A stretch of 64,000 nt of DNA from an uncultured Dehalococcoidia bacterium (lineage in GTDB: Bacteria; Chloroflexota; Dehalococcoidia; Lucifugimonadales; UBA3495), in contig CATOSK010000011.1 in the NCBI GenBank assembly GCA_951812535.1, positions 1 through 64,000 of the forward strand. Direction: 5' to 3'. Numbering within the stretch: the stretch's first letter is position 1; each line of letters opens with the position of its first letter. The notes under the pieces were generated by a model that saw only the letters and a list, made by a program, of their open reading frames with translations, searched no databases and had not been told where the DNA came from. Both the position numbers and the translations under genes were made by a program. Positions 19,140-49,369 of the stretch are shown piece after piece.

Positions 19140-20363
19140 CAGGACGATTGCAAAGTCAGGTAGGGGAGGTTATAAAGACGGGGAAGTGAGATGAGGGAGT
19201 GTGGGGATATGGAAGCGGCGGAATCTCTGTTCAGTTGTTTGGAGCAGGTGCCGGATCCCAGGAGGGCCAGAGGGGTCAGACATCCTTTTCAGGCCATTCT
19301 CCGTCTGACCCTGCTGGGCTTGGTCTGCGGTCAGACCACCATGGCCCACATTGCCCTCTTCGCCAGGATGCACTGGCCGGTGCTGAAAGAGCCGTTGGGC
19401 TTTGTACGGGACCATCCGCCCCATGCCACCACCATCTCCCGCACCTTGGCCGGGGTTCGCTATGAGGAGTTGCAGGGGGCCCTGACCGGATGGGTGGCCC
19501 GGGTGGTGTCGGACCAGGAGATGTACGCCTCGGTGGATGGCAAGTGGGCCAAGCAGTCCGAGGACGCAAGCGGGAACCCCTTGGTGATGGTGAACGTACT
19601 GGCCCACGACCTGAAGCTGTGCCTGGCCCAGTGGCCGGCATCGGAGAAAAGGTACGAACCCGGGGTGTTGCGGGAACAGGTGGGGCAACTGTTTGAGCGC
19701 TACCCCGGCCTTGGGCTGCTGACCATGGACGCTCTGTACGCGGAGCGGGACCTGTGCCAGGCCATAGTGAGACACGGACGGGACTACTTGGTGCGAGTCA
19801 AAGGGAACCGGCCCGAGTTGCTGGCCGCGTTGGCAGAGGGATTTGCCGAGGAGGAACTGGGGGAACCCGAGGCTGTGAGCGTTGAAAAAAAGCGGGGGTG
19901 ATTGAGAGTCGGCGTGTCTGGACCGATGAGGAACTGGCAGGCTATATCCGGGATGAGTTGGGCTTTCCGGGGGCTATGCAGGGGGTGATGCTGGAGAAGG
20001 AGACGGTGGACATAGCCACCGGGGAGGTGAGCCGGGAGCACTGGTATCTGCTGACCAGCCTGAGTTCCCGCAGGTGCAGCCCGAGAGAACTGCTTCGGGT
20101 GATCCGCAACCACTGGAGGGTGGAAAACAGCCTGCATCACGTGAAGGACCGCAGTTGGGACGAGGACGTCCACACGCTGCGGCGTCCGGGTTTGGGCGAG
20201 GTGTACGCCAGCCTAGTCAACACCGCCCTGAACGCCCTGCGCTTGGAGGGCTGGTTCCCTCTCCGCATGTCCATGCCCCTGCGAGCCAAGACCTGCGCCT
20301 TCCGCCCAATCCAGACCATCGCCCGCCTCTGCGGCCTATCCTCCTGACTTTGCAATCGTCCTG
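19140..20363 (+). mobile_element. Complete ISAs1-family insertion sequence
   Basis: 1224 bp bounded by perfect 21-bp inverted repeats, caggacgattgcaaagtcagg at 19140-19160 and its reverse complement at 20343-20363. A 9-bp direct repeat cggcccggg flanks it (19131-19139 and 20364-20372), consistent with the 8-10-bp target duplication of this family. Intact ends and duplication suggest a recent insertion. It sits between the GNAT gene and the B12 operon promoter. Confidence 0.9.
19191..20347 (+). CDS. ISAs1-family transposase in two frames (possible -1 frameshift)
   Basis: Frame one (19191-19901, 236 residues) carries the DDE_Tnp_1-associated N-terminal domain (LFSCLEQVPDPRRARGVRH), the first catalytic Asp in YASVDGKWAKQ and the second in LGLLTMDALYAERD. 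Frame two (from about 19886 to 20347) carries the last part with the Glu in NHWRVENSLHHVKDRSWDED. The two overlap at 19898-19901. Just before, frame-zero codons read gaa aaa aag, containing the A AAA AAG slippery heptamer; a -1 slip there joins the frames as ...EKKAGVIESRRVW, which fits the family. The joined product is about 385 residues, a normal length. Either programmed frameshifting or an indel in the A7 tract explains the split. Confidence 0.8.
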
Positions 20364-20409: not shown

Positions 20410-20439
20410 AGCCGACAGCGTATCCCACCTTAAAAATCT

Positions 20440-20585
20440 GCTAGACACTTCGGGTACCGCAAAGGTTCAAACGGGAAAGGCGGTGAAAATCCGCCGCGGT
20501 TGCGCCACTGTGAACGCCGTCCACTCCCATGTCCCTTCCGGGGGGCGCAGGATGGCGTAAGTCAGGACACCGACCTGGGTGATTG
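20440..20585 (+). ncRNA. Cobalamin riboswitch
   Basis: Core conserved elements appear in order: ggttcaaacgggaa, the cggtgaaaatccgccgcgg stem, the B12 box gcgccactgtga, then aagtcaggacaccgacctg closing the domain. This is the standard adenosyl/aquo-cobalamin aptamer. A rho-independent terminator follows at 20668, so B12 binding should favour termination and shut the operon off. Exact boundaries are approximate. Confidence 0.93.
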
Positions 20586-20667
20586 GGGCTCTACTCTGCG
20601 CCATACAGATGGGGGTTCCCCGGGACTGGTTTCGCCAGCTTTCCCGAGTAACTGAAATCACAGCTTC

Positions 20668-20732: not shown

Positions 20733-21428
20733 ATGACCAGCAACAGCGACATAGCAATGACCATCATCGGCGTTGGGCCCGGTGACCCGCAGATGCTTAC
20801 CCTGCGGGCCCAGCAGGCCATCCGCAGCGCCGACCTGGTGGTCGGGTTTCGGACCGTCCTCAACGTGGTGGAGCAATGGGCCGGTGACGCCGAGCTTTGC
20901 CCCATGAGCTACCGGGACCAGGAGCAGGTGCTGGACTACGCCCAGGAGCAGGTCCGTTCGGGAAAGACCTGCGTGGTCTGTGCCTGGGGCGACCTCAACG
21001 TCTCCGCGCGGGAGCTGATCGAGAGGGTCCAGCGCCGCGCCGGAAGGGTCGAACTCATCCCGGGGGTCAGCTCCATCCAGTTTGCCGCCGCCCGAACCGG
21101 AATCTACATGGAGGAGTCCATCTTTGTGACCCTCCACAAGCGGGCCGACACCAGCGGCGATTTGGACGAACTGCGGCATCACCTGAACGAAGGGCTCCGC
21201 AACATTATCCTGTTGCCCCGGCCCTTCGACCTGATGCCTCCATTGATAGCCGGAAACCTGGTTGAGGCCGGGGTCCCGGGAGACCGGCCGGTCATCGTCT
21301 ACCAGCGGCTCACCTTCGACGACGAGCAGGCCTGGCGCGGCACCCTGGAACAATGCGCCGCAATCTCGGAAGAGTTCAGCGACCTGTCCATCATGGTCTT
21401 TCCCCGGCCTTCCCAGGAACCGGACTAA
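20733..21428 (+). CDS. cbiE: Cobalt-precorrin-7 / precorrin-6Y C5-methyltransferase subunit CbiE
   Basis: 231 residues in the tetrapyrrole methylase fold: TIIGVGPGDPQMLTLRAQQAIRSADLVVG at the start, VELIPGVSSIQFAAARTG in the middle and an NIILLPRPFDLMPPLIA segment. It methylates C5 of the corrin ring using S-adenosylmethionine in the cytosol. The decarboxylating partner CbiT/CobL C-terminal half is absent from this window. It is the first gene after the B12 riboswitch terminator. The ATG at 20757 is an alternative start; neither candidate has a clear ribosome-binding site. Confidence 0.85.
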   Translation: MTSNSDIAMTIIGVGPGDPQMLTLRAQQAIRSADLVVGFRTVLNVVEQWAGDAELCPMSYRDQEQVLDYAQEQVRSGKTCVVCAWGDLNVSARELIERVQRRAGRVELIPGVSSIQFAAARTGIYMEESIFVTLHKRADTSGDLDELRHHLNEGLRNIILLPRPFDLMPPLIAGNLVEAGVPGDRPVIVYQRLTFDDEQAWRGTLEQCAAISEEFSDLSIMVFPRPSQEPD

Positions 21429-21456: not shown

Positions 21457-24400
21457 TTGACCACTCCCACTCGGACCGGGCAACAGAAGATCGTTTTCGT
21501 TACCACCGCGGACACGGACATCCTGACCGCGGAGCGCTCGGTGGCGGACCTTGACCTGTCCGACTTCCCCACCATCGCGGCCTTCAACCCGGTCGCCCTG
21601 GTGGATGACCAGTCCCGGGCGGACCTCCTGGACGCCGTGGACAACGCCGGCGTCGTGGTTTTGCGCCTCCTCGGCGGCAAGCGTTCCATGCCCGAGGTCT
21701 ACGACGACCTGGTTTCCCGCTGCCACTCCCAGGGCGTCCCCCTCATCGCCTGTCCCGGACACCAGGAATGGGACGAAGATCTCGTCACCGCCTGCACCGT
21801 CTCGGTGGCAGAGCTGGAAACCACCTTCTCCTACCTGATGCGCGGCGGCGTCGCCAACTTTCAGAATCTGTTCCTGTTCCTCAGCGATACCTACCTGGGG
21901 AGCGAGTACGGACACGAGGCCCCGGAACCGGTCCCCTGGGAGGGCGTGTACCACCCGGACGTTGACCGGGGATTGGACGTGGACACCTACATCGCCCGGC
22001 AGTTCAGGCCCGGCCTCCCTGCGGTGGGCGTCCTCTTCTACCGCGCTCATTGGATGAGCGGCAACCTCCAGTTCATTGACGAGCTTGTTCGCGGCCTGGA
22101 GGCCCAGGAGGTCAACGTCCTGCCGGTCTTCTCCTTCAGCCTCAAGCACAATCCCGAGGAGGAGGGCGAACACAGCCGCACCCTCACCGAGTTCATGCTG
22201 GACGACAACGGTTCCCCCCGGGTGGACTGCATCGTCAACACTATGGGCCTCGCCATGAGCGACATCAGCCAGGACGGCCCGACCATCGCCACCGGCTGGT
22301 CGGTAGACCTGCTGGACCGGATGGACGTCCCGGTTATCCAGGGCATCGTCAGTACCGGCACCCACGAGGAATGGGAGGAAAGCTCCCTCGGGCTCGGCCC
22401 AATCGACACGGCGATGAACATCGCCCTGCCGGAGTTCGACGGACGGATCATATCGGTCCCCATTTCCTTCAAGCAGGAAACCGCCGCCGCCCGGAACGGC
22501 AGCATGGTGACCAACCGGCTGCAACGCTACGTTGCCCAACCGGACCGCATCGACCTCGTCGCCCGGCTGGCCGCGAAATGGGCCAACCTGCGCCGCAAGT
22601 CCAACGCCGAAAAGCGCGTCGCCATCATAATGAGCAACTATCCGACCAAGGACGCCCGGATCGGCAACGCGGTGGGCCTAGACACCCCGGCATCCGTGGT
22701 CAACCTGCTGAACGCGCTTGACCGCGCCGGATACCAGGTCGAGGATATCCCCGAGGATGGCGACGAGCTGGTCCACCGCATCATCGAGCGGTGCAGCAAC
22801 GATCGGGACTCCCTCACGGAGGAACAGCTTCGCCTCGCCGCCGGCCACGTTTCCGCGGGACAGTACGCCGGGTGGTACTCGGGCTTTCCGGAATCCGTCC
22901 GCCAGGAACTGTTGGATTCCTGGGGCCCGGCTCCCGGAAACGTCTACCGCACCGGGGACCAGCTAGCCATCGCGGGTCTCCAACTGGGCAACGTCTTCGT
23001 GGGATTGCAGCCGCCCAGGGGCTTCGGGGAACACCCCATATCCATCTACCACAGCCCCGATTTGACGCCGACCCACCACTACATTGCCTACTACCGCTGG
23101 ATACGCGACGTCTTCCAGGCCGACGCGATGGTCCACGTCGGCAAGCACGGAACGCTGGAGTGGCTTCCCGGAAAGGGCATCGGCCTTTCCGCCGCCTGCT
23201 ACCCGGAAGTTGCCCTCCAGGATTTGCCCCTGTTCTATCCCTTCATCATCAACAACCCCGGGGAGGGCACCCAGGCCAAGCGCCGCACCCACGCGACGAT
23301 CATCGACCACCTCATCCCGCCCATGACCACCGCCGACAGCTACGGCGACATCGCCAAGCTGGAACAGCTCATGGACGAGCATTACCAGTGCCAGACCCTG
23401 GATCCCGGCAAGCTGCCGATGCTGGAGTCCCAGATCTGGGGAATGGTCCAGCAGGCGGAGCTTCACCGGGACCTGGGAGTCGACGCCCAGCCTGATGACT
23501 TCGCCGAGTTCATGCTGGAGATTGACGGCTACCTCTGCGAGATCAAGGACGCCCAGATCAAGGACGGCCTGCACACTCTCGGCGAACCCCCCACACAGGA
23601 ACAGTTGGTCGGCCTCATGTCCGCCCTGACCCGCCTGGACATTGGCGGCATTGCCAGCCTCCGCCGGGCCATCGCCGAGGCCCTGGGATTGGACTACCGG
23701 CAGTTGCTGGACGAACCCTCCACCCCGGTCAATGGAAACATGCCCGCTATCCTGCGGGACCTGGACCCGGACACTCCCCTCCGCAGTGCCGGGGATGTGC
23801 TGGAGCGGCTGGAAGTCCTCTGCCGCAGCTGCCTCTCCCAGATGCAGGACCACGGCTTCTCCCCGGAGCAGGTCGCCGGTGTTGTCGCCCGCGTCGTCGG
23901 ACAACCCGATGGCCCCACCGAGGAAATGCTGCGGTTCGCCACCGAGTCCATCTATCCCGCCCTGATGCGCACCACCGATGAAATAGACAACCTGCTGCGG
24001 GGACTGGAAGGCCGCTTCGTGCCCCCCGGCCCCAGCGGCGCGCCCACCCGGGGCATGGCCAACGTGCTTCCCACCGGGCGCAACTTCTACTCCGTTGACC
24101 CCAAGACCCTGCCTTCCCCCGCCGCGTGGGAGGTCGGAAGAGCCCTCGGCGACGCCCTCCTGGAAAAGTACCTGGAGGAAGAGGGCGCCTACCCTGAGAT
24201 GGTCGGGATCGTCGTCTGGGGCACCTCCGCCATGCGTACCCACGGCGACGACATTGCCCAGATAATGTACCTCCTCGGCGTCCGCCCGGTCTGGCAGCAG
24301 GAAAGCCGCCGGGTCTCCGGCATCGAGGTCATCCCCGTCTCCGAGTTGGGCCGCCCCCGCATCGATGTGACCGTGCGGATCAGCGGCTTCTTCCGCGACG

Positions 24401-25320
24401 CGTTCCCGAACCTCATATACCTCCTCGACCAGTCCATTGAGCAGGTAGCCGCCCTGGATGAGTCCCCGGACGACAACTATGTCCGAAAGCACCTGCTGGA
24501 AGACCGCCAGCGCCGCGAGGAGGAAGAGAACGCTCCCGCTGATTCCCCACGGGCTCCCGCGCCTCCGGTATCCGGCTCGCTCTACCGCATATTTGGGAGC
24601 AAGCCCGGGACCTATGGCGCGGGCATCCTCCCCGTTCTGGACGAGCGCAACTGGGAGACGGTGCAGGACCTGGCCGAGGTCTACACCGCCTGGGGCGGCT
24701 ACGCCTACACCCAGCAGGACTTCGGCGTCAATGCCCGGGAGCAGTTCCGCCTCCGCTTCAGCCAGATCGTCATCGCCGCCAAGAACCAGGACAACCGGGA
24801 ACACGATGTCTTCGACAGTGACGATTACATGCAGTATCATGGCGGCATGATCGCCACCGTCCGCGCCCTGACGGGGCGCAACCCCCGCCAGTTTTTCGGA
24901 GACAGTTCCGATCCTTCCCGCTCCCGCGTCCGTGACCTGCAGGACGAGGCCCGCCGGGTCTTCCGCAGCCGGGTGGTCAACCCCAAGTGGATCGATTCCA
25001 TGAAGCGCCACGGCTACAAGGGAGCTTTCGAGCTGTCCGCCACCGTGGACTACATGTTCGGCTACGACGCCACCGCCCAGGTCATCGAGGACTGGATGTA
25101 CCAGGACGTCACCGAGGAGTACGTCCTGAACCCGGAGATGCAGCAGTTCTTCCAGGAGAGCAACCCGTGGGCCCTGCGCGGCATCGTCGAACGGTTGCTG
25201 GAAGCCGTGGAGCGCGGCCTGTGGGAAGACCCGCCGCCGGAGATGCTGGAGCAACTGCGCCAGCTTTACCTTGATTTGGAAGCCGACCTTGAAGCCCGCC
25301 AGGAGGGACGGCCGGGTTAA
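21457..25320 (+). CDS. cobN: Cobaltochelatase large subunit CobN
   Basis: The ORF track begins at 21262, inside cbiE in another frame. The probable start is the TTG at 21457 after a GAGGAC site, giving 1287 residues, normal for CobN/ChlH. Family markers are SIYHSPDLTPTHHYIAYYRW, MVHVGKHGTLEWLPGKG, IINNPGEGTQAKRR and the C-terminal KWIDSMKRHGYKGAFELSATVDYMFGYDAT. CobN binds hydrogenobyrinic acid a,c-diamide and, with an AAA+ ATPase complex, inserts cobalt (aerobic B12 route). The ChlI-ChlD fusion at 27006 is the likely ATPase partner. It follows cbiE by 28 bp. Confidence 0.93.
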   Translation: MTTPTRTGQQKIVFVTTADTDILTAERSVADLDLSDFPTIAAFNPVALVDDQSRADLLDAVDNAGVVVLRLLGGKRSMPEVYDDLVSRCHSQGVPLIACPGHQEWDEDLVTACTVSVAELETTFSYLMRGGVANFQNLFLFLSDTYLGSEYGHEAPEPVPWEGVYHPDVDRGLDVDTYIARQFRPGLPAVGVLFYRAHWMSGNLQFIDELVRGLEAQEVNVLPVFSFSLKHNPEEEGEHSRTLTEFMLDDNGSPRVDCIVNTMGLAMSDISQDGPTIATGWSVDLLDRMDVPVIQGIVSTGTHEEWEESSLGLGPIDTAMNIALPEFDGRIISVPISFKQETAAARNGSMVTNRLQRYVAQPDRIDLVARLAAKWANLRRKSNAEKRVAIIMSNYPTKDARIGNAVGLDTPASVVNLLNALDRAGYQVEDIPEDGDELVHRIIERCSNDRDSLTEEQLRLAAGHVSAGQYAGWYSGFPESVRQELLDSWGPAPGNVYRTGDQLAIAGLQLGNVFVGLQPPRGFGEHPISIYHSPDLTPTHHYIAYYRWIRDVFQADAMVHVGKHGTLEWLPGKGIGLSAACYPEVALQDLPLFYPFIINNPGEGTQAKRRTHATIIDHLIPPMTTADSYGDIAKLEQLMDEHYQCQTLDPGKLPMLESQIWGMVQQAELHRDLGVDAQPDDFAEFMLEIDGYLCEIKDAQIKDGLHTLGEPPTQEQLVGLMSALTRLDIGGIASLRRAIAEALGLDYRQLLDEPSTPVNGNMPAILRDLDPDTPLRSAGDVLERLEVLCRSCLSQMQDHGFSPEQVAGVVARVVGQPDGPTEEMLRFATESIYPALMRTTDEIDNLLRGLEGRFVPPGPSGAPTRGMANVLPTGRNFYSVDPKTLPSPAAWEVGRALGDALLEKYLEEEGAYPEMVGIVVWGTSAMRTHGDDIAQIMYLLGVRPVWQQESRRVSGIEVIPVSELGRPRIDVTVRISGFFRDAFPNLIYLLDQSIEQVAALDESPDDNYVRKHLLEDRQRREEEENAPADSPRAPAPPVSGSLYRIFGSKPGTYGAGILPVLDERNWETVQDLAEVYTAWGGYAYTQQDFGVNAREQFRLRFSQIVIAAKNQDNREHDVFDSDDYMQYHGGMIATVRALTGRNPRQFFGDSSDPSRSRVRDLQDEARRVFRSRVVNPKWIDSMKRHGYKGAFELSATVDYMFGYDATAQVIEDWMYQDVTEEYVLNPEMQQFFQESNPWALRGIVERLLEAVERGLWEDPPPEMLEQLRQLYLDLEADLEARQEGRPG

Positions 25321-25353
25321 TCCCGTCCAGTTCAGCCAGCAAGGAGGCCGCAA

Positions 25354-25761
25354 GTGGAAATAACCCTGGAATTGCTCAATGAGCTGACCACCAACGAGGA
25401 GATGATGTGGGTCGTTGGGGTCGGTGAAGTCGTCAGCGAAAACCACGCCCACGGCATCAAGCAGCCGGAGATTCACAACGGCTGGGCCACGATCGAGGCC
25501 GACAACTGGCATTTCCACCTCAAGATGGAAAATGTTGATGGCATCCAGTTCGTCGAGGCCAACAGCCACGGGAACATGAAGTCCTACTACGTCCGGTTCT
25601 CCCGCAACTGGGAGGAAACGCTGGTCCGTTGCTACTTCCCCAACCCCCAGTTGGATGAGAATGAGAAACGGACCGAGTTCCAGCCGGAAAAGCTGAAGGC
25701 TTTCGAGGCAATGCGGGACCGCTATGTCGGCCGCGACGGTATCGTGTTCGTAGAACGGTAA
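25354..25761 (+). CDS. HutX/ChuX-like protein inside the cobalamin operon
   Basis: 135 residues, GTG start after AAGGAGG. The segment HNGWATIEADNWHFHLKMENVDGIQFVEA, then YYVRFSRNWEETLVRCYFPNPQLDE and EFQPEKLKAFEAMRDRY, resembles the one-domain heme-handling HutX/ChuX fold (F/W-HxHLK, a strand ending in the F-Q/V-E motif, and the closing K-x-x-x-F-E helix). I infer this from pattern similarity only. It sits between cobN and cbtB under the B12 riboswitch, so corrinoid, tetrapyrrole or cobalt handling is a better guess than heme use. There is no signal peptide or membrane segment. I cannot name its function. Confidence 0.7.
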   Translation: MEITLELLNELTTNEEMMWVVGVGEVVSENHAHGIKQPEIHNGWATIEADNWHFHLKMENVDGIQFVEANSHGNMKSYYVRFSRNWEETLVRCYFPNPQLDENEKRTEFQPEKLKAFEAMRDRYVGRDGIVFVER

Positions 25762-25888: not shown

Positions 25889-26089
25889 ATGACTACTTTG
25901 ATGAATGCTCTTCGCTCGCGGGAGACCCCGGTCTGGGCGCCCTGGGTCGTCCTGGGCGCCGGCGTCCTGTACATGGTCGGCTACGTCGACGGCGCGGTTC
26001 ACGGTGCGGCCCTCGGCTCGCCCGCCATCCTGGGCGCGGTCCACGAGGTCTTCCACCACGCCCGCCACGTCGCCTTCATGTGCCACTAG
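25889..26089 (+). CDS. cbtB: Cobalt transporter accessory subunit CbtB
   Basis: 66 residues, ATG after AAAGGGAGGGATCC. One membrane helix (VWAPWVVLGAGVLYMVGYVDG) is followed by a His-rich C-terminus, HEVFHHARHVAFMCH, as in CbtB proteins that flank CbtA. B12-riboswitch control of cbtAB is well known in other bacteria. It is thought to pair with CbtA for cobalt uptake. Confidence 0.85.
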   Translation: MTTLMNALRSRETPVWAPWVVLGAGVLYMVGYVDGAVHGAALGSPAILGAVHEVFHHARHVAFMCH

Positions 26090-26222: not shown

Positions 26223-26996
26223 ATGACAAGCGTGCTTCCGGTTTCGCTGGTAATGGGTGTGGTCGTGGGATTGCTCGTCGGCGCCTACTTCAATGTTTTC
26301 AATGTCCCGGTCATGGAATGGGCCATTTCCCTAGAAGAGGCTGCGGCAGCCGCTGAAGCCCCCGCCGGTGAGGCTGAGGACGGAGGCGGTATCGCCGTTT
26401 CCCTTGGAGTACAGCGTGTGGGAATGGCCGCTGGATTGGCCGTCCTGGGAGTCCTATTTGGCGCTGTATTCACCGGCCTTTACCACCTGGTCAGACTCGC
26501 CTCTCCGGGTTGGAACATGTGGGCCTGGTCCTCCATCGCCGGGTTCCTGGGATTCTGGGCCATATCCCTGTTTGCCCAGTTGAAATACCCCTTGAATCCG
26601 CCGGGGATTGGAGAAGGCACGTCCCTGCTCGCCCGGCAGGGATTCCAGTTCCTGTTCATTGCCGTGTCCATTCTGGCGGTGGTTGGAGTCTGTTTCGCCG
26701 TGCGCAAGGTGGTCCAGTCCCAGCCCCACGGGGTCGGCCGCTGGCTCGGGCTGTCTGGAATCGCCGCCGCCTACGCCGTCGTCGCCATTGCGGCGTTCCT
26801 CCTCATCCCGGGAAACCCCGACGCCATCCCGGAGTGGGTGCCGGAGGGCCTGGTCATAATGTTCCGGTCCTTCAGCATCATCGGCCACTTCCTGCTCTGG
26901 ATGGGCATCGCCCTGGGAGTCGCCGGGTACATTCGCTACAAGGAAAAAGGCATCTGCGCCAATCCGGCGGCCGCCGAGCGGGTTTCGGTCGGCTAG
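26223..26996 (+). CDS. cbtA: Cobalt transporter CbtA
   Basis: The ATG at 26223 follows a GGAAAGGTGGTGC site, so the longer ORF start at 26175 is not needed; the product has 257 residues. About five membrane helices are visible (VSLVMGVVVGLLVGAYF, VGMAAGLAVLGVLFGAVFTGLYH, MWAWSSIAGFLGFWAISLF, FLFIAVSILAVVGVCFAV, WLGLSGIAAAYAVVAIAAFLLI), with the family NPPG segment in YPLNPPGIGEG. It is the membrane component for cobalt entry, paired with CbtB. The gene ends ten bases before the TTG of the chelatase ATPase gene. Confidence 0.85.
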   Translation: MTSVLPVSLVMGVVVGLLVGAYFNVFNVPVMEWAISLEEAAAAAEAPAGEAEDGGGIAVSLGVQRVGMAAGLAVLGVLFGAVFTGLYHLVRLASPGWNMWAWSSIAGFLGFWAISLFAQLKYPLNPPGIGEGTSLLARQGFQFLFIAVSILAVVGVCFAVRKVVQSQPHGVGRWLGLSGIAAAYAVVAIAAFLLIPGNPDAIPEWVPEGLVIMFRSFSIIGHFLLWMGIALGVAGYIRYKEKGICANPAAAERVSVG

Positions 26997-27005
26997 GAGT
27001 CATTG

Positions 27006-29111
27006 TTGACCACCCAAACCGAGACCCAGAAGGAACCCTGGTTCCCCTTCACCGCCATCGTTGGGCAGGAAGCCATGAAACGGGCGCTCCTGCTCAACAC
27101 CATCAACCCCAAGATCGGCGGCGTCCTCATACGGGGCAAGAAGGGCACCGCCAAGTCCACCGCCGTCCGATCCCTGGCCGCCCTGCTTCCCGAGGTTTCG
27201 GTGGTACAGGGCTGCCCTTACAGCTGCCCCCCGGAGCAGCGGCAGGGACTGTGCCAGCGCTGCGACCCTCCCCAGATGGCGTTCCAGCCGGTCAGCCACC
27301 AGGTCCGCATTGTGGACCTTCCCGTGGGCGCCACCGAGGACCGCCTGGTCGGGTCGCTGGATATTGAGTCCGCCATCAAGACCGGGGCCAAGAGCTTTGA
27401 ACCCGGCCTGATCGCCGCCGCCCACCGCGGCATCCTCTACATCGACGAGGTCAACCTGCTCAACGACCATCTCGTTGACGTCCTCCTCGATGCCGCGGCC
27501 ATGGGCCGCAACTATGTTGAGCGCGAGGGCATCTCCGTCAGCCACGCCGCCGAGTTCATCCTGGTGGGCACCATGAACCCGGAGGAAGGCGACCTGCGCC
27601 CCCAGCTCCTGGACCGCTTCGGACTGGCCGTGGAGGTGGACGGCTCCCTGGAACCGGAAGGCCGCCGCGAGGTCGTCCGCCGCCGCATCGCCTTTGAGGC
27701 CCAGCCGCATGACTTCATATCCGGCTGGGACGATGCGGAGGCCGCCGAACGGGAACGGCTCCTCCGCAGCCGGGAACTGCTCCCCCAAGTGACCGTTGGC
27801 GATGAGATTCTCGACCTCATCACCGACATCTGCGCCGAGTACCAGGTCGACGGGCTGCGCGGCGACATCGTCATGTACAAGACCGCCAGCACCATCGCCG
27901 CCTACGAGGGCCGCACCGAAGTCAACGTCGAGGACGTGCGGGAAGCCGCCCAGATGGCCCTGCTGCACCGCCAGCGCCGTCTCCCCTTCCAGCAGCCTCA
28001 CCTCGTCACCGAGCAGCTCGACGCCATGATCGACGAGCACCAGAACCGGGACCGGGAACCCCAGGACCAGCCCCAGGACTCCAACGACCGCAACGAGTCT
28101 GACGGCGACCCCCCGGACTTAGAACCCAACGAAGAACCCCCCGCCGAGGACAACTCCGGCGACTCCGGGCCCGGGGACCAGTGGTTTGAGACCGGCGACC
28201 CCTACTCCGTAGAGTCCCTCCAGCTTGAGCCCACCGACCGCCGCGCCCGGCAGAGCACCGGACGGCGCGCCGTTACCATCAGCAGTTCCTCCGTGGGACG
28301 CTACGTCCGCTCTGCCGTCCCCCAGGGGCCGGTGTCGGACCTTGCATTGGACGCTACCCTCCGGGCCGCCGCTCCCCACCAGCATCGCCGCCGTTCCGAA
28401 ACCCCGGAGGGATCAGGCAACGCTCTCCTGATAGAAACCTGGGATGTCCGCGAGAAGGTCCGCGAGACCCGCACCGGCAGCCTCATCCTCTTCGTCGTCG
28501 ACGCCAGCGGCTCAATGGGCGCCCAGCGCCGGATGGTTGCCGTCAAGGGCGCTATCCTTTCCCTGCTCCTGGATGCCTACCAGCGCCGCGACAGGGTCGC
28601 GCTGATCAGCTTCCGAGGCACCCACGCCGACCTTTTGCTTCCCCCGACCAACAGCGTCGATCTGGCCCAGGTCTACCTACAGGATATGCCCACCGGGGGG
28701 CGCACTCCTCTTTCCCGCGGACTCTATCTGGCCCTTGAGGTCCTGGAAACCGAGCGCCTCAAGGACCGGGAGGTGCTGCCCCTCGTGGTGGTGCTGTCCG
28801 ACGGCCGCGCCAACGTCTCCATGGACTATTCGTCCTCGGCCGCCGCTGCCGTCGCCGAGGCGCAGGGCGTGGCTTCCCTGTTCGAGGACAAGAAGTTTTC
28901 TTCCGTGGTAGTGGACACCGAGCTGGGCTTCCTCAAGCTGGGCATGGCGCAAAACCTGGCCGAGGGCATGGGAGCCCGCTGCATCAAGCTCGACGACCTT
29001 CGAGCCGACCGCCTGGCCGATGCCGTCCGACGGCAGTTGCCCGATGGGGAAGAACCCGACCTGGACGCAGCCGAAGTCCAGTCCATGGTCCGCCGCCTCG
29101 GCTTCTCCTGA
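27006..29111 (+). CDS. ChlI-ChlD fusion ATPase, putative cobaltochelatase partner of CobN
   Basis: The TTG at 27006, six bases after AGGAG, is preferred to the TTG at 27003; both give LTTQTETQ, echoing the TTG start of cobN. About 701 residues: AAA+ domain with Walker A GKKGTAKST, a four-cysteine insert CPYSCPPEQRQGLCQRC, Walker B ILYIDEVNLL and VGTMNPEEGDLRPQLLDRFG; an acidic/Pro-rich linker (about 345-395); and a C-terminal von Willebrand A domain with the MIDAS motif DASGSMG (about 500). Single-chain ChlI-ChlD proteins beside CobN are taken to replace CobS/CobT in ATP-driven cobalt insertion. It is the last gene of the B12 operon. Confidence 0.9.
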   Translation: MTTQTETQKEPWFPFTAIVGQEAMKRALLLNTINPKIGGVLIRGKKGTAKSTAVRSLAALLPEVSVVQGCPYSCPPEQRQGLCQRCDPPQMAFQPVSHQVRIVDLPVGATEDRLVGSLDIESAIKTGAKSFEPGLIAAAHRGILYIDEVNLLNDHLVDVLLDAAAMGRNYVEREGISVSHAAEFILVGTMNPEEGDLRPQLLDRFGLAVEVDGSLEPEGRREVVRRRIAFEAQPHDFISGWDDAEAAERERLLRSRELLPQVTVGDEILDLITDICAEYQVDGLRGDIVMYKTASTIAAYEGRTEVNVEDVREAAQMALLHRQRRLPFQQPHLVTEQLDAMIDEHQNRDREPQDQPQDSNDRNESDGDPPDLEPNEEPPAEDNSGDSGPGDQWFETGDPYSVESLQLEPTDRRARQSTGRRAVTISSSSVGRYVRSAVPQGPVSDLALDATLRAAAPHQHRRRSETPEGSGNALLIETWDVREKVRETRTGSLILFVVDASGSMGAQRRMVAVKGAILSLLLDAYQRRDRVALISFRGTHADLLLPPTNSVDLAQVYLQDMPTGGRTPLSRGLYLALEVLETERLKDREVLPLVVVLSDGRANVSMDYSSSAAAAVAEAQGVASLFEDKKFSSVVVDTELGFLKLGMAQNLAEGMGARCIKLDDLRADRLADAVRRQLPDGEEPDLDAAEVQSMVRRLGFS

Positions 29112-48910: not shown

Positions 48911-49369
48911 CTGCTCGTGAACATCACTGGGTCTTCAAGGGCCCAACTGCCATCGCCCTGCCAGCGGCCGGGTCTCGATTGACACTGCCAAACGCCTCGC
49001 CTACCATGGAAAGCGAGGCCGTGCTAGACGGGGAGCTAGCGGTGCCCTGTACCCGCAATCCGCTACAGCGGGGTGGAATTCCCCTTGAGAGGCCGGTCCC
49101 AACGGGCCGCTGTCCGCGACTGGCGGTGTTGATGGTCTGGTCCCACGCGGCGCAGCCTCGTGAACTCCGCCAGGTCCGAGAGGAAGCAACGGTAAGCGAG
49201 CAACTGCGGGTGCCGTGGGAGTGCCTGGCCTGAGTCGTTCATCCGGATACGCCCGGGGGAATCGTGTCGAAAAGGGGTGCGCGGTCTCTTTCGCTGCCAT
49301 ATTTCCCCCAATATCACTGACCTTGCATCACTGAATCGGGATGTGCCTGCCGTCAGGACGTTCCAGTAG
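48911..49369. other. Non-coding interval upstream of rsmA
   Basis: About 460 bp in which the long ORFs on both strands have no recognisable coding character. Apart from proline/arginine-rich shadow frames nothing could be identified; the rsmA promoter should lie in the last 100 bp. Confidence 0.4.

Follow-up and report, generated by a model that had tools for sequence, protein, structure and literature searches.

The window (i.e., the entire 64,000-nucleotide stretch of DNA analyzed here) carries an operon in which the genes downstream of a cobalamin riboswitch are ordered CbiE-CobN-HutX-like-CbtB-CbtA-CobI/D (Table 1). The placement given in the initial annotation, a soluble HutX-like protein between cobN and cbtB under a B12 riboswitch, agrees with our profile searches: the matches to PF06228, RF00174, and TIGR02257 (the CobN equivalog model) all exceed their cut-offs, and the CbtB-like call, which is weak by score (i.e., below the PF09489 threshold), also rests on a position before CbtA that is kept in relatives. 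A DDE_Tnp_1-type transposase in two overlapping frames (window positions 19191-20347) lies just 5' of the riboswitch.

Table 1. Features of the cobalamin-riboswitch operon in the window
Feature	Position	Strand	Evidence
Cobalamin riboswitch, upstream of operon	20435..20592	+	Rfam RF00174, 56.3 bits (gathering score, 31.5)
CbiE-like precorrin C5-methyltransferase	20733..21428	+	TIGR02467, 121.5 bits (cut-off, 92.9)
CobN, cobaltochelatase large subunit	21457..25320	+	TIGR02257, 1264 bits (cut-off, 822); PF02514, 1412 bits
Ribosome-binding site AAGGAGG	25341..25347	+	Read from sequence
HutX/ChuX-fold protein, 135 aa	25354..25761	+	PF06228, fold model, dN/dS
CbtB-like small membrane protein (weak call)	25889..26089	+	PF09489, 14.1 bits (cut-off of 27 missed); position
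CbtA, predicted cobalt transporter subunit	26223..26996	+	PF09490, 106 bits (cut-off, 30.7)
Fused ChlI/ChlD-type small and medium chelatase subunits (CobI/D, putative cobaltochelatase)	27003..29111	+	TIGR02442, 804 bits (cut-off, 779)

The open reading frame between CobN and the CbtB-like gene is a real protein-coding gene under purifying selection. Its GTG start codon lies six bases after the ribosome-binding site, and its dN/dS value is 0.04 against the nearest relative (L077; 89% amino acid identity) and 0.08-0.17 against three further relatives. A WHxH segment (His53/His55) is invariant in the encoded protein and its orthologues. Since this segment is also present in relatives that are unlinked to B12 genes, it is not corrin-specific and is unusable as a corrin signature.

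An AlphaFold2 model built on a 34-sequence alignment (pLDDT, 94.1; pTM, 0.89) bore out the HutX fold that had been proposed from the sequence. The top Foldseek matches in the PDB were 3na2 (E = 1.1e-8), 3fm2 (6e-7), ChuX (4e-6), 2hqv (9e-6), and HutX (1.6e-5). Each of the 18 matches at E <= 0.001 falls into the ChuX/HemS-type group, and sequence searches agree with this grouping. The window protein resembles HutX/ChuX (PDB 5exv, 2ovi, and 6u9j) in its fold over nearly the full length (TM, 0.60-0.71, normalized to the query), in a conserved His before the central strand, in being a small soluble protein, and in its Pfam score (PF06228 [ChuX_HutX]; 27.5 bits versus a cut-off of 25). However, it shares only 12-23% identity with them, is about 50 residues shorter than HutX, and falls far below the HutX equivalog cut-off (TIGR04108; 23.8 versus 110 bits). 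The curated model thus does not class it as a HutX, although it has the fold and falls within the broad Pfam family. A HutX carrier binds heme, passes it to HutZ, and is expected to be encoded with heme uptake or degradation genes, whereas the neighbors in the window and in relatives are CbiE, CobN, CbtBA, and CobI/D under a B12 riboswitch, and no hut/chu/hmu genes were recognized among the neighbors examined. The closest solved structures are 3na2 (Leptospirillum; LFE_1968-like, PF22684) and 3fm2 (AVA_4353, Anabaena), with TM values of up to 0.79 for 3na2. These proteins are similar in size to the window protein, and 3na2, which we take to be a member of PF22684, carries WHLH; however, the identity is about 19%, and the PF22684 score (19.6 bits) misses the cut-off of 27. 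A scan of 301 sampled Chloroflexota with PF06228 gave few matches, as these branches lie near the limit of what the Pfam model can detect.

Single-sequence scans of genome contigs returned no relatives, and scanning GTDB genomes with an alignment (profile) yielded 44 loci, almost all of them from SAR202/Dehalococcoidia metagenome bins. At 39 of the 44 loci, the HutX-like gene lies directly 3' of CobN on the same strand. The gap between the two, which was measurable at 38 of the 39, spans 4-273 bases (median, ~40), and the 39th locus (L077) holds only a CobN fragment. Within the window's family in the order-level sample, CobN occurs in 42 genomes, 37 of which also carry the HutX-like gene, and the two match positions, compared by hand, adjoin in all 37. 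Two of the other five genomes have only a truncated CobN; the gene is absent from the remaining three (G026, G009, and G034) despite the presence of CobN and sufficient downstream sequence. At four loci (L107, L111, L112, and L114), a further B12 riboswitch begins immediately 3' of the HutX-like gene, so that the gene could share a transcript with CbiE-CobN only. The riboswitch between the HutX-like gene and CobI/D was seen at L107:10489-15188, L114:10493-15451, and L111:10581-14742; at L107, the riboswitch precedes genes for a FhuF-like protein and an SBP_bac_5/Opp-type ABC transporter, a candidate importer of cobalt or a corrinoid.

The genome encodes a second, diverged ChuX_HutX protein (HutX2; G000:C4:547411-547806, L131:8409-8810; PF06228, 27.2 bits), which is the first gene after a 120-bit B12 riboswitch and is followed by CbiA, CobO, CobT, CobS, and CbiB. 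HutX2 adjoins CbiA in 25 of the 30 relatives retrieved, and each of the seven CbiA-linked loci that were scanned has a riboswitch in front of HutX2. The profile-profile probability between the HutX-like protein of the window (HutXl) and HutX2 is 96.1. At two other loci (L069 and L070), two 45%-identical paralogues are flanked by genes for a BtuF-like binding protein and a FecCD permease, in BtuF-BtuC-BtuD-like operons with a B12 riboswitch in front.

A more remote relative is DUF7676 (PF24724; profile-profile probability with HutXl, 97.7). It shares the GYLTV-WHFHL and PNP-LD segments and the B12-riboswitch context with the window protein but has an insertion of 20-odd residues that contains CIGEH and RAEFYR segments. 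The window protein scores 38.2 bits with PF24724 (cut-off, 27), with the best stretch covering profile positions 109-166 only; the invariant CIGEH/RRT-RAEFYR region of a full-length match is absent from it and from its orthologues. The partners of DUF7676 also differ, being a TonB receptor and BtuFCD-like genes, sometimes with a 2Fe-2S fusion. In Chloroflexota (L072 and L073), DUF7676 occurs in riboswitch/binding-protein/FecCD/ATPase operons. Plasmid records hold many further copies: DUF7676 is encoded near a TonB receptor and/or BtuFCD-like genes on plasmids of Paracoccus, Azospirillum, Methylocella, Diaphorobacter, Trichormus, Calothrix, and Rhodococcus (L214-L220 and L222-L225; three phyla besides Chloroflexota), and each of the seven plasmid loci scanned (L214-L220) has a B12 riboswitch. 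The Rhodococcus locus is without a TonB receptor, and ABC genes do not follow in the Methylocella locus. Because the BtuFCD-like and TonB operons follow cobalamin riboswitches, we rejected the possibility that they serve heme uptake. Plasmid records contained no close CobN-type or HutX2-type relative, and an alignment scan of viral contigs returned no relative of the HutX-like protein.

The expected co-occurrence with cobalt and B12 genes holds for homologues above about 58% identity, which essentially always adjoin CobN, but not for relatives from other families of the order, which share about 50% identity. Those relatives have no B12 genes nearby, and their neighbors encode a CoA-transferase, MFS, MoaC, or GAPDH. 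Neither of the two outcomes that the initial annotation had set as refuting its proposal (no structural match to the HutX fold, or homologues mostly unlinked to cobalt/B12 genes) was observed. At four unlinked loci (L130:7965-9646, L124, L125, and L127), the HutX-like relative is followed by a same-strand gene of about 397 aa, which in L130 belongs to CoA-transferase family III. A third HutX-like clade (L176-L181; e.g., L181:7704-8714, minus strand) has the HutX-like domain fused to a Cys-containing N-terminal domain. This N-terminal domain resembles a thioredoxin-like 2Fe-2S ferredoxin, and the clade is not B12-linked. Phylogenetically, the CobN-linked group clusters with the Btu-linked pair, and the two are nested among unlinked proteins; a separate deep branch comprises HutX2 and the fused clade. 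The tree and the unlinked relatives thus indicate that linkage to B12 genes characterizes particular branches rather than the fold as a whole.

The main corrin operon of the genome (L209; G000:C3:468569-476000) has its own riboswitch and a complete-looking gene set (i.e., CbiC-CbiX-CbiD-CbiT-CbiL-CbiF-CbiG-CbiH). These genes are the cobalt-early set, in a genome that also carries CobN, and most of the relatives with CobN also have CbiD. A cobalt-early pathway (CbiX, CbiD, and CbiG) is not expected to pass through hydrogenobyrinate diamide, and the natural substrate of the window CobN is therefore uncertain. With CobN and a ChlI/D-type subunit encoded alongside a cobalt-early gene set, it becomes less plausible that the HutX-like protein supplies the chelatase with hydrogenobyrinate diamide from the biosynthetic route. 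Haloferax likewise combines CobN and a ChlI/D-type subunit with a cobalt-early genome, and a salvage role has been suggested there (PMC8305020). The initial annotation had envisaged a tetrapyrrole or corrinoid carrier that feeds or protects the CobN substrate. The link to corrinoids is strengthened by HutX2-CbiA-CobO, the BtuFCD-like paralogues, and DUF7676, all of which are riboswitch-controlled, but the more specific role of feeding or protecting the CobN substrate is not supported, given the cobalt-early pathway.

On the basis of fold and gene context, we consider the chances about even that the window protein binds a corrinoid and hands it over to or from CobN. It would be a cytosolic tetrapyrrole-binding protein of the ChuX/HutX fold recruited to corrinoid metabolism, rather than a heme-uptake HutX, and would be made together with CobN under B12 riboswitch control. 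The corrin (i.e., the CobN substrate or the cobalt-bearing product) would most likely be held on the open face of the beta sheet, with His53/His55 of the WHxH segment as candidate holding residues, and would then be passed to or from CobN; both the identity of the corrinoid and the direction of transfer are what we infer. Precedents for such trafficking exist: ChuX is reported to shuttle anaerobilin from ChuW to ChuY (cited in PMC13227078) and to bind heme only weakly (~2e-5 M), as a trafficking protein would (PMC10470608). By analogy, the job may be likened to that of ChuX/HutX proteins handling heme products in heme-use operons.

Alternatively, the protein might regulate or scaffold the class I chelatase as one of its subunits, binding a tetrapyrrole and stimulating CobN rather than carrying a ring; Gun4 acts on Mg-chelatase in a comparable way. 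The tight, strand-specific pairing with CobN and the several loci with a CbiE-CobN-only transcript favor such a subunit. However, relatives sharing the fold are encoded beside CbiA and beside BtuFCD-like transporters, with no class I chelatase adjoining, and three CobN operons of the family lack the protein, and we regard this role as unlikely. It is likewise improbable that the protein takes part in corrinoid redox or upper-ligand processing, helping to reduce the cobalt or to remove a ligand before adenosylation. HutX2 is encoded near CobO, which needs Co(I), and thioredoxin-like [2Fe-2S] domains, identified by annotation and by weak Pfam scores just below the cut-off, are fused to DUF7676 (as in cyanobacteria) or lie beside it. 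The Cys-containing domain of L176-L181 also points in this direction, as does the hydride chemistry on heme reported for HemS-type relatives (cited in PMC13227078). On the other hand, no Fe-S domain, flavin-domain partner, or conserved cysteine was found for the window protein, and the N-terminal domain of L176-L181 was not recognized by Pfam.

We give little credence to a Co(II) metallochaperone serving CobN as CobW does. CobNST requires Co(II) delivery by CobW (PMC10206600), no CobW was seen in the window operon, and the HxH motif and the adjoining CbtAB would suit a cobalt carrier; however, ChuX-fold relatives bind tetrapyrroles, and relatives of the protein occur in BtuF-BtuC-BtuD-like and TonB-receptor operons, the cargo of which would be the completed ring. 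Heme handling is among the least supported readings: an ordinary HutX/ChuX that sits in a B12 operon by chance (e.g., sequestering heme from CobN) would explain the Pfam and fold matches but is very unlikely, given the widely missed HutX equivalog, the neighbors without recognized heme genes, and the repeated independent B12-riboswitch contexts.

The recurrence of a carrier fold in B12 operons of at least four phyla suggests that the fold is also used for B12-type rings. A broader reading, to which we give slightly less than even chances, is that the ChuX/HutX fold has B12-dedicated branches (i.e., CobN-linked, HutX2, BtuF/BtuC-linked, and DUF7676) that may carry corrinoids in the cytosol during import, amidation/adenosylation, and cobalt insertion in at least Chloroflexota, Proteobacteria, Cyanobacteria, and Actinobacteria. 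To our knowledge, the movement of corrinoids and their intermediates through the cytosol between importer, chelatase, amidase, and adenosyltransferase is largely an open question. If the fold does carry corrinoids, several "HutX" annotations would gain a testable function, as would DUF7676, for which a functional label becomes possible given its recurrence in TonB-receptor and/or BtuFCD-like operons. It would also offer a handle on the job of CobN in cobalt-early organisms, a question raised for haloarchaea too (PMC8305020).

The fold and the Pfam family are already known; in the open-licence literature examined, we found no paper linking the ChuX/HutX fold to B12 operons and none that names DUF7676. 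In the HmuS/BtuS CobN-like proteins of Bacteroidota, a CobN-type protein is likewise associated with the handling of tetrapyrroles (PMC13227078, PMC6460266). However, they belong to heme operons and are membrane-anchored with a signal peptide (PMC13227078), whereas the CobN of the window scores above the cut-off of the CobN equivalog model and is encoded in a cobalt/B12 operon. Elsewhere in the window, a bacterial large SRP RNA is located at 49019-49284 (RF01854, 162 bits).
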